From: Verrucomicrobiota bacterium | GTDB lineage: Bacteria; Verrucomicrobiota; Verrucomicrobiia; Limisphaerales; VHDF01 | Direction: 5' to 3' | DNA: 37,122 bases | Assembly (NCBI GenBank): GCA_016871495.1 | Contig: VHDF01000044.1 | Location: 1-37,122, forward strand | Shown here: one piece after another, positions 12,444 to 20,123 of the stretch | Position numbering within the stretch: position 1 is the stretch's first letter | Layout: each line of letters starts with the position of its first letter | Position numbers and translations under genes: made by a program | Notes under the pieces: generated by a model | Database searches by the model: none | What the model saw: only the letters and a program-made list of their open reading frames with translations | What the model was told of the DNA's origin: nothing

Positions 12444-12798
12444 CCCCGGCCGAGTGCCGGATTCGACCATCGCCCCGCATCGCGCAGCGTCGAGCTGCGC
12501 AAAAGCACGAACGGCAAAGGCCTGCCGAAATCTGAGGTGGATCCGCAGGGGGATCCATCGAAACTTGAGCAAAGGCTTCGAATCTCAGATCTTGCGAGAG
12601 ACCGATGCGGAGGTTGGTGGTCTCAAGGTGACCCGGCGGTATCGTCGCTGCGCTTCTCAACCACCGACTCCAAGCTGGCAAGCCTCGGGCTTGCGACTGA
12701 GCCGCTTCACGTCACTCTGATCTCACATCCCTTCTGCATCCGTCCCGCATCCCCCGCTTGGGGTCAGCATGTCTGAGTTTATGGAGCCCGGAGCAGTT
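12444..12798. other. Repeat-bearing gap between the fusion gene and tRNA-Glu
   Basis: No protein gene is supported. Overlapping short frames on both strands are low-complexity translations of a dispersed repeat (12488-12618). The remainder shows no clear terminator, promoter or RNA fold that I can support. Confidence 0.6.
12488..12618 (-). repeat. Dispersed ~130-bp repeat, copy A
   Basis: Read on the minus strand this stretch aligns along its length with 23617-23752 (plus strand). Shared runs include CCGCATCGGTCTCTCGC, TTCGATGGATC and CCCTGCGGATCCA. The core TGGATCC...GGATCCA is an inverted repeat that could form a hairpin. One reading frame is conserved too (LRIHLxFR, then LDAA), yet no start, signature or plausible full-length gene exists, so I treat it as a non-coding repeat. 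Confidence 0.75.
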
Positions 12799-12873
12799 TG
12801 GTAGCGCGTACGGGAATCGCACCCGTCTTTCAGCCTTGAGAGGGCCGTGTCCTAACTGATAGACGAACGCGCC
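12799..12873 (-). tRNA. tRNA-Glu (anticodon CTC), atypical core
   Basis: The 75-nt minus-strand sequence folds into a complete cloverleaf with encoded CCA. The acceptor stem is 7 bp (G1-U72 wobble), the D-stem 4 bp, the anticodon stem 5 bp with loop CTCTCAA (anticodon CTC), the variable loop 4 nt and the T-stem 5 bp. U13-G22 and the absence of nucleotide 47 are typical of bacterial tRNA-Glu. It is unusual in the tertiary core. The D-loop reads ATCAGTTA where AGCGGTTA is usual, and the T-loop reads TGCGATT instead of TTCGANT, so the near-universal G18-Psi55 contact becomes A18 and G55. It would decode GAG if functional. Confidence 0.88.
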
Positions 12874-13109
12874 GCCCGAGAGCATCGAATTTTACGGAGC
12901 CCCCCCCGGCTGTCAATGCACCAATGCAACTCCTGACCTTCCGACGCCTCTGTGCGAGCGCCAGAAATGCGGATTGCCATGGATGGATCACGGTCGTCGA
13001 AGCCGGTAAAACCACGAGCCGTCACTAGGCTCAGACAACCTGACCTCGAAGCGGAGGGAAAGGCAGGAGCGAGGGTGTGATCCTGATCTTGATTCGTGAC
13101 CGGGATTCC

Positions 13110-13451: not shown

Positions 13452-15719
13452 ATGGACCGTCTTCCGCCTCGCATCATCGGCGCCATGCGGTTTGCATCCG
13501 TCGTGGAGAAGGACCTGATCCTGGCTGGAGGGGGCCATGCCCATGTCGCCGTGCTCAAGTCGTTCGCGATGCGTCCTGTGCCCGGGCTTCGCATCACCTT
13601 GGTTTCCAAGGAATCGACCACAGCCTACTCGGGCATGCTGCCCGGACTAATTGCAGGCCATTACAGCCTTGATGAGATTCATCTCGATTTGCGTTCGCTC
13701 TGCCGGCAGGCCGGCGCTCAATTCTATCAGGCCGAAATCGCAGGACTCGATCCTTCCGCTCACCACCTGCTCCTCCGAGAACGACCGCCCGCGGCTTACG
13801 ATCTGATTTCCATCAACACCGGATCCACGCCGTCCATGCAGTCGGTGCCGGGCGCCGTGGAGCACGCCATCCCCGCCAAACCGGTCAGAGAATTCCTGCA
13901 CCGTTGGGAGCGACTCCAATCGGACTGGACCCAAGGTCCGGAATCCCCCAGGACCCTCACCGTGGTGGGAGGCGGAGCCGGCGGTGTTGAACTCTTGCTC
14001 TCCATGCGGCACCGGCTGTTGTCGAGGTCTGCGGAATTGGGACGCTCCACAGCCCCCCTTCATTTTCAATTGATCACGGCATCCGCGTCCCTCCTGCCCA
14101 CCCACAACCGGCGGGTCCAAACCCGGTTCGAACGGTGGTTCAACAACCTCGGGATCACTTGGTTCGCCGGGCATCGTGTCCTCGAGGTCACGCCGCAGTT
14201 CCTGCTTTGCGAGGGTGGACGCCGCGTGGAAACGAATGCCACCATCTGGGTAACCCAGGCCTCGGCGCCGGATTGGATCCGCGATTCGGGGTTGGCCACC
14301 GACGAGCAAGGCTTCATCGCCGTCAACCCCTTCCTCCAATCCACGTCGCACCCCGACGTGTTTGCGGCGGGTGATGTCGCCGCGATGATGGGGTCCCCCC
14401 GGCCCAAGTCCGGGGTGTTTGCGGTGCGCCAGGGACGTCCCCTGGCGGCCAACTTGCGGCGGGCTTTGGATCAGCTCCCGCTGCGGCCTTACGTTCCTCA
14501 GCAGCAGTTTCTCAGTCTCATCAGCACCGGTGACCGCCAGGCCGTCGGTTCGCGAGGTCCTTGGTCGTTCGAAGGGGAGTGGGTCTGGAAACTCAAGGAC
14601 CACATCGACCGCGCATGGATGGCGCAATACGAACCCGTCGAATCCATGAACGCGGCGCCGCCCGCCCTCCAATCCGGCAGCGCGCCTTCGATGCGTTGTG
14701 GTGGATGCGGCGCCAAGATCGGCCCCCAAATACTCGATCGGGTTTTGGCACGACTCCGCGCCTCAGCCGCGCCCGGTGCGATGCCGGGACTCGATGAACC
14801 GGACGATGCGGCGGTGATCCTTTGGCCGTCCTCCTCGGCACTCGTGCAAACGGTGGATTATTTCCGGAACTTTTTGGATGACCCCTACCTGTTCGGACGC
14901 ATCGCGGCTCTCCACGCGCTCGGTGACATTTTTGCCATGGGCGCGGAACCCCGCTCGGTGCTGGCCATCATTACCCTCCCTCCTGGCCGAACGCGACCCG
15001 TGGAGGAGCAGCTTTACCAAGTCTTGGCAGGCGCCCTCGCAACCCTCGGGCAAAACAGCACCAAGCTCCTCGGCGGCCACACTTCCGAGGGAATCGAACT
15101 GTCCTTCGGTCTGGCCGTCAATGGCGAGGCTTCTCCCCACCGGTTGTTGAAGAAGGGAGGCATGCGCCCAGGAGATCGGTTGATCCTCACCAAGCCGATT
15201 GGCACGGGCGTAGTGATGGCTGCGTCCATGCGGGGCAAGGCCCATCCGCATTGGATCGACGCGGCGATTGCGGTGATGTTGGTTTCTAATCGGGACGCTT
15301 CCCGCATTTTTCTCGAACACAGCGCAACCGCCTGCACGGACATCACGGGATTCGGGCTCGCAGGACATCTGCGCGAGATGGCAGTCGCGTCCCGAGTGAC
15401 ATTGGAGATCCACCTGCAAAGTATTCCTTTGCTCTTGGGGGCATTGGACAGCTCGCGGAGGGGAATCGCCAGCACACTGTTCCCGGAAAACCTGCGGCAA
15501 GCCGAGGTGATTCAAAACCTCGAAGCGGTCAGGCAGGAACCCATGTTTCCCCTTCTGTTCGACCCGCAAACCTCGGGGGGGCTCATCGCTTCAGTGCCGC
15601 CCTTGAACGCTCAGGCCTGCCTGGATCAACTCCAACGCGAAGGCTACCGGGAGGCTCGGGACATCGGCGAGGTCGCCAGCGAGGGTGCGTCTGGAATCGG
15701 AAGGCTGGTGGTGCGATGA
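13452..15719 (+). CDS. selD: FAD-dependent pyridine nucleotide-disulphide oxidoreductase / selenide, water dikinase fusion
   Basis: A 755-residue two-domain protein. Residues 1-~390 are an NDH-2-like flavoprotein: FAD loop LILAGGGHAHV, AYSGMLPGLIAGHY, NAD loop VVGGGAGGVELLL and the FAD-side VFAAGDVAAM. Residues ~410-755 are SelD, which makes selenophosphate from selenide and ATP. The catalytic loop MRCGGCGAKIG supplies C419 and K422, matching E. coli C17 and K20; TVDYFRN, DIFAMGAEP, GGHTSEG and DPQTSGG follow. Such NDH-SelD fusions are known in cyanobacteria and other bacteria. An alternative ATG at 13485 is possible. No selA, selB or mnmH lies nearby, so use of Se for Sec or selenouridine cannot be decided here. 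Confidence 0.93.
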   Translation: MDRLPPRIIGAMRFASVVEKDLILAGGGHAHVAVLKSFAMRPVPGLRITLVSKESTTAYSGMLPGLIAGHYSLDEIHLDLRSLCRQAGAQFYQAEIAGLDPSAHHLLLRERPPAAYDLISINTGSTPSMQSVPGAVEHAIPAKPVREFLHRWERLQSDWTQGPESPRTLTVVGGGAGGVELLLSMRHRLLSRSAELGRSTAPLHFQLITASASLLPTHNRRVQTRFERWFNNLGITWFAGHRVLEVTPQFLLCEGGRRVETNATIWVTQASAPDWIRDSGLATDEQGFIAVNPFLQSTSHPDVFAAGDVAAMMGSPRPKSGVFAVRQGRPLAANLRRALDQLPLRPYVPQQQFLSLISTGDRQAVGSRGPWSFEGEWVWKLKDHIDRAWMAQYEPVESMNAAPPALQSGSAPSMRCGGCGAKIGPQILDRVLARLRASAAPGAMPGLDEPDDAAVILWPSSSALVQTVDYFRNFLDDPYLFGRIAALHALGDIFAMGAEPRSVLAIITLPPGRTRPVEEQLYQVLAGALATLGQNSTKLLGGHTSEGIELSFGLAVNGEASPHRLLKKGGMRPGDRLILTKPIGTGVVMAASMRGKAHPHWIDAAIAVMLVSNRDASRIFLEHSATACTDITGFGLAGHLREMAVASRVTLEIHLQSIPLLLGALDSSRRGIASTLFPENLRQAEVIQNLEAVRQEPMFPLLFDPQTSGGLIASVPPLNAQACLDQLQREGYREARDIGEVASEGASGIGRLVVR

Positions 15720-19732: not shown

Positions 19733-20123
19733 GAATGCGATGCGAATGCCCTTTGGGCGGGGGCGACTAAACGACAACCAAGGCGGCGTGGGAAGAAGAT
19801 TTTACGACGCCCCGTCGCCCCAACCCCGGCTGGTTCAACGTGCGCCGCCGGCCCCAAGCGGGCCGGAGAACGGAACCTCGTTCGGGCGCCACGCCCGCCC
19901 GTGTATCCCGATGTTGTTGGTAGGGCGGGCCTGTCCCAGCCCGCCGCCCACGGGATGCAAAACATCATGCTCCGGCGGCGCGCCGGGACGGACGCGCCCT
20001 ACCTGCATCACCGGCAACATCGGGATGCACCGCACGCCCGCAGCCCCTTCGAAGGTGGATTGCCTTCTTCCACGGGTCGTGCCTACATTCCGCTCGTTCC
20101 GCATGCAAGCCCATCGAATTTCT
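19733..20123. other. Divergent gap between argG and the aldose epimerase
   Basis: About 390 bp without a supported gene. Much of it is a large imperfect inverted repeat (19901-20030). Promoters for both flanking genes must lie here, but I see no clear consensus boxes. An open frame running through it in phase with the epimerase lacks family similarity before residue 1 of the assigned start. Confidence 0.6.
19901..20030. repeat. Large imperfect inverted repeat
   Basis: The left arm (19901-19948) opens with TATCCCGATGTTG, then GGTAGGGCGGG and CTGTCCCAGC. The complement of the right arm (19972-20030) opens with CATCCCGATGTTG, then, after an extra ~11 bp, GGTAGGGCGCG and CCGTCCCGGC. The arms differ at several positions, as expected of an old or evolving hairpin element. 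Similar 'GTAGGGCGGGC...CCCGCCCTAC' hairpins are, from general knowledge, frequent between genes of Verrucomicrobiota. Confidence 0.65.

Follow-up and report, generated by a model that had tools for sequence, protein, structure and literature searches.

A chromosomal tRNA-Glu(CUC) of Verrucomicrobiota with a probable compensatory A18-G55 pair in its elbow

The pair between G18 and pseudouridine 55 (Psi55) is regarded as nearly universal in canonical tRNAs. Residue 18 is inserted between the fourth and fifth residues of the T-loop, where it makes one hydrogen bond with Psi55, while the 19-56 pair makes the flat outer face of the elbow (PMC4810234). The gene described here, a tRNA-Glu(CUC) with encoded CCA at positions 12799 to 12873 (minus strand) of a 37,122-nucleotide stretch of a Verrucomicrobiota bacterium (GCA_016871495.1, VHDF01000044.1; hereafter, the window), has A18 and G55 instead. 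The window is one whole contig (C44) of a 5.06-Mb genome that is 97% complete. Natural working tRNAs without G18 and Psi55 are already known, such as tRNA-Pyl and the type II mitochondrial tRNAs (PMC7609411), but these lose or rebuild the entire elbow, whereas the window tRNA exchanges one pair and retains 19-56. The interdigitated T-loop motif of the L1 stalk, RNase P, and T-box RNAs (PMC4810234) offers another parallel, since A18 would act likewise, although the motif serves RNA-RNA docking and not a tRNA elbow. Finally, tRNA arrays are known from viruses and plasmids (tRNA array units, e.g., PMC5966550, PMC12803027); many viral-array tRNAs share A18/G55, as does an array in the window's own genome, whereas the window gene stands alone on the chromosome, occurs across the order, and belongs to no array. 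No description of A18/G55, or of an exchange at 18-55, was found in the literature searched, most subscription journals lying outside its scope, and an earlier description is possible.

The gene is the sole tRNA called by ARAGORN in the window, as tRNA-Glu(ctc), and the Rfam tRNA model (RF00005) scores it at 51.3 bits, for a gathering score of 29, a type of score proposed as a check in a preliminary description of this DNA. Read 5' to 3', the tRNA is GGCGCGT TC GTCT ATCAGTTA GGAC A CGGCC CTCTCAA GGCTG AAAG ACGGG TGCGATT CCCGT ACGCGCT ACCA, with ATCAGTTA as the D-loop, TGCGATT as the T-loop, and AAAG as the variable stretch. Loop-by-loop reading places A at 18, G at 55, U at 15, and G at 48, as the preliminary description had it, except that the strand was missing there. 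Its account of intact stems, a CTC anticodon, encoded CCA, U13-G22, and a missing nucleotide 47 is equally borne out, all stems being fully paired (with wobbles at G1-U72, U13-G22, and G28-U42). The identity features recognized by glutamyl-tRNA synthetase (GluRS), namely U11-A24, U13-G22, the missing 47, and A37, are all present. Canonical bacterial tRNA-Glu shares the cloverleaf, the Glu anticodon loop, U11-A24, U13-G22, the missing 47, CCA, and the retained G19-C56 and U54-A58; the window tRNA differs from it by A18/G55 for G18/U55 and by U15/G48 for G15-C48. Because the G18-Psi55 pair is general to tRNAs and is not a mark of tRNA-Glu, the gene is still classed as tRNA-Glu by its other features.

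This gene is very probably a functional chromosomal tRNA-Glu(CUC) that would read GAG beside a normal tRNA-Glu(UUC), with A18-G55 as a compensatory purine pair that closes its elbow. The evidence comes largely from its orthologues, which occur in two covarying states, G18/U55 (state A) and A18/G55 (state B). A match to the window tRNA was found in 49 of 58 members of the order and, order-wide, in 136 of 154 good-quality genomes. All orthologues read base by base had either A18 with G55 or G18 with U55, with zero mixed forms. For a broader view, 320 genomes were searched once per query form; the matching form scores about 500-fold better, and a mixed gene should give similar scores with both. 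This two-query comparison gave about 43 genomes in state B, about 200 in state A, and none mixed, the odd score ratios of two genomes (G083 and G125) being due to pieces that end at contig ends before position 55, so that position 18 alone is readable. Among 84,980 species, an A18/U55 pattern had no match, and an A18/G55 pattern had 34. Almost all of these stretches bear Verrucomicrobiota labels (Pedosphaera, Limisphaerales, and the like); the few labelled Patescibacteria, Omnitrophota, or Akkermansia carry names given by submitters.

The switch between states has been repeated. An rpoB tree of 27 state-A and 27 state-B genomes requires 12 elbow switches, of which at least 6 are forced by branches with Shimodaira-Hasegawa-like approximate likelihood ratio test (SH-aLRT) values of at least 95 alone, the count being approximate since it derives from a single gene and a short tree search. 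In six independent pairs, 18 and 55 change jointly every time (sign test p 0.03, the minimum attainable with six pairs). Genes of the main background (12 in state A, 22 in state B) are otherwise identical and differ only at 18 and 55. Likewise, in family f16, the genes of one state-A genome (G089) and one state-B genome (G097) share the marks of the family and differ solely at these two positions, and a further genome (G116) has A18/G55 on a G15-C48 background. As the switch is found in several sequence backgrounds, the sequences alone also indicate multiple switches. The same downstream gene stands at 40 of 50 loci, both states included, and the two states therefore belong to one orthologous locus. 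The existence of two states without mixed forms, together with switches that differ only at these bases, indicates that the changes at 18 and 55 are compensatory, with a pair between A18 and G55 most likely substituting for G18-Psi55. The simplest account of the switching would be the neutral crossing of a fitness valley via two linked changes. A conserved gene that swapped this pair to A-G at least 6 times, with no intermediates, constitutes a natural double-mutant experiment, and species pairs with tRNAs differing at these two bases alone make the contribution of the pair, of Psi55, and of 2'-O-methylated G18 (Gm18) directly testable.

Alternatively, the A18/G55 form could have spread by gene conversion or horizontal transfer, with mobile tRNA arrays that share this elbow as one conceivable source, and not have arisen by double mutation in place. 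The presence of a 16-gene array with A18/G55-type elbows in the window's own genome agrees with this, as do the many such tRNAs carried by viruses and the recurrence of an identical 75-mer across distant families. Nevertheless, the conserved G18/U55 genes are equally identical across families, the downstream synteny is common to both states, the f16 genes keep their family marks in either state, and the window's genome yielded no Glu(CTC) donor in an array, which makes spread by transfer an unlikely origin.

On known structural grounds, it is plausible that A18 meets G55. A18 would sit between positions 57 and 58, where G18 would, and contact G55; with G19-C56 and U54-A58 kept, RNase P and the ribosome would encounter the same outer face as before. 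Psi55 requires U55 (the substrate of TruB) and Gm18 requires G18 (that of TrmH), and neither is possible on an A18/G55 tRNA. With both target bases gone, the window tRNA would carry neither Gm18 nor Psi55. It is predicted to be charged with glutamate and to decode GAG, the translation of which is its likeliest role. Several points weigh against the reading as a functional gene with a compensatory pair. Rapid translocation depends on the 18-55 pair (work cited in the review PMC4810234), so that an A-G pair might reduce efficiency. The normal tRNA-Glu(UUC) could suffice for reading GAG, and the Glu(CTC) gene may thus be dispensable. Both bases could also be transferred together on a short tract by gene conversion. 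Moreover, most state calls in the 320 genomes are E-value ratios judged by eye, not per-sequence readings.

The preliminary description had considered an early pseudogene. An early pseudogene or an assembly error would explain why two hallmark bases are altered. The identical 75-mer is, however, present in 9 of 58 order members (the window's included), every one from a different family; the eight other genomes, from other families, and the independent assemblies speak against sequencing error, and 22 copies are found order-wide. In the same 26 genomes, pairs of Glu(CTC) genes are on average 94.5% identical (95.8% minus 18 and 55) and pairs of the normal Glu(TTC) genes 88.9%; the altered elbow thus sits in the better conserved of the two. 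A sigma-70-like promoter, TTGACA-16-TAAAAT, lies at positions 12889 to 12916 (minus strand), 15 bases 5' of the mature tRNA end; it agrees with 11 of 12 consensus positions, and 0.1 such sites are expected per shuffle. TTGACA- or TTGACT-like boxes are found at comparable spots 5' of most orthologues, in both elbow states. The usual marks of tRNA pseudogenes (relaxed constraint, damaged stems, no promoter) are all absent, and the change is compensatory. The earlier argument that a selective change of the elbow with intact stems is unlike decay thus holds. A pseudogene or sequencing error, which is hardly conceivable here, is ruled out by conservation across families.

The other option of the preliminary description was a specialised tRNA, and it named the non-translational cell-wall tRNAs of staphylococci as likewise altered in their elbow contacts. 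A non-translational tRNA of this sort might be, for example, a dedicated Glu donor for a peptide- or tetrapyrrole-making enzyme, and a conservation exceeding that of Glu(TTC) would suit it. Nevertheless, a listing of the tRNA-Glu genes, as suggested earlier, gave the window gene as the only Glu(CTC) found in this genome (97% complete, 56 tRNA matches), the remaining Glu gene being the normal TTC isoacceptor; it is, therefore, not an extra copy beside an isoacceptor with the same anticodon. Sequencing error and a normal Glu(CTC) gene, both listed among the refuting observations of the preliminary description, do not apply. Its Glu identity features are intact, its G18/U55 orthologues look wholly ordinary, no dedicated enzyme adjoins it, and its neighbors differ in the window's genome. 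GAG is also common in 13 window genes (225 GAG, 256 GAA, both codons being common). With its elbow changes compensating each other, the comparison to cell-wall-type tRNAs finds no support, and a non-translational role is very improbable.

The same elbow is found in a tRNA array of the same genome. Contig C16 carries, at about 44332-52645 (L165:4332-12645), about 16 same-strand tRNA-like genes that all have G55 and, by hand alignment, mostly A18; their 19-56 pair is mostly G-C, with one U-A and one probable C-G case. A Ro60 homologue lies within the array (C16:47563-49254; TROVE 7e-49, Ro60 vWA 3e-61), as does a match to the YrlA Y RNA (C16:46006-46135) that, at 40.5 bits, is below the gathering score of 69. 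The array, accompanied by a Ro60 gene of its own and perhaps by a Y RNA, may form a distinct system. The window gene, being the sole tRNA in 37 kb, is outside any array, and its orthologues share one chromosomal neighborhood. Outside the C16 array, the single-copy tRNAs read in the genome retain G18-G19 and U55-C56, Glu(CTC) being the sole exception. Tools and annotators may under-score such tRNAs, as the scores of the window gene and of most array members fall below those of most other tRNAs of the genome. A generic A18/G55 pattern (8-nucleotide D-loop, 5-nucleotide variable loop) had no match in the 320 genomes, but it misses the C16 array because of the D-loop spacing and is, thus, uninformative on array frequency.

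In viral contigs, two generic A18/G55 patterns matched 51 and at least 120 stretches, and 79 of 129 viral loci have at least five tRNAs. Among viral tRNAs with 7-nucleotide D-loops that had not been selected by pattern, G18/U55 occurs 186 times and A18/G55 51 times, with no A18/U55 and 5 G18/G55; the further combinations are G18/C55 (18), U18/U55 (9), and A18/C55 (3). The association between 18 and 55 is strong (Fisher p ~5e-47, relatedness ignored). Viral arrays follow the rule too, which suggests that the alternative elbow is a general one. Elsewhere in the elbow of these viral arrays (L202-L330), 54-58 is A-U in 34 cases vs. U-A in 964, and A-U, C-G, and U-A occur at 19-56 alongside G-C.

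Viral occurrence raises the question of an advantage. The altered elbow could be adaptive, in the way of viral tRNA arrays, if it lets the tRNA escape a tRNA nuclease, toxin, or modifying enzyme that reads G18 or U55; the repeated switching agrees with this, as does the recurrence of the elbow in the Ro60-linked island and in viral arrays. All other single-copy tRNAs read in the genome nevertheless retain G18/U55, and guarding one isoacceptor would be an odd defense; no such enzyme was identified, and neutral compensation explains the switching too, so that escape appears doubtful. With similarly low probability, A18-G55 might be a second fully working elbow type that viral and mobile arrays employ in tRNAs for many amino acids, that became fixed repeatedly in a single chromosomal tRNA, and that is kept for escaping enzymes or nucleases that need G18 or U55 (TruB, TrmH, elbow-reading defenses).

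The preliminary description had listed the altered 18-55 and 15-48 contacts together. Both alterations are real, but U15/G48 is unrelated to the elbow state: with the single exception of G116, every orthologue read within the order has it, be it in the A18/G55 or in the G18/U55 state. In genomes of the same class, 15-48 is also G15-C48 or A15-U48, and the occurrence of G-C, A-U, and U-G across the class is the covariation expected of a Levitt pair. U15/G48 is a separate, older Levitt-pair variant, and not a marker of A18/G55 tRNAs. One further locus (L416, G122:C131:13900-18097) contains two state-B tRNA-Glu(CTC) copies about 3.7 kb apart, one of which additionally carries G at position 14.

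In much of the order, tRNA-Glu(CTC) is followed by a conserved small gene (about 120 aa) and then by an HNH endonuclease gene (L031-L060, L133-L153). In the window's genome, the usual downstream gene is on another contig (C22:12454-12804), which indicates that the window tRNA or its surroundings have moved. The small gene has no Pfam or NCBIfam match, and its match to a solved structure is weak (E 0.27, 'toxin-like protein'); a RelE-like identity, which was an impression by eye, is accordingly not claimed. A dispersed repeat of about 150 bp, detected by blastn at positions 12627 to 12781 (no strand assigned), ends 17 bases past the tRNA 3' end; its copies on contig C16 have 90-91% identity, and one of them (49713-49862) is inside the tRNA-array island. 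A second dispersed repeat, of about 135 bp (window 19899-20034), has five C16 copies with 98-100% identity. Lastly, positions 13452 to 15719 (plus strand) encode a fusion of an oxidoreductase with a SelD-like domain (TIGR03169 and TIGR00476, both above cut-off).
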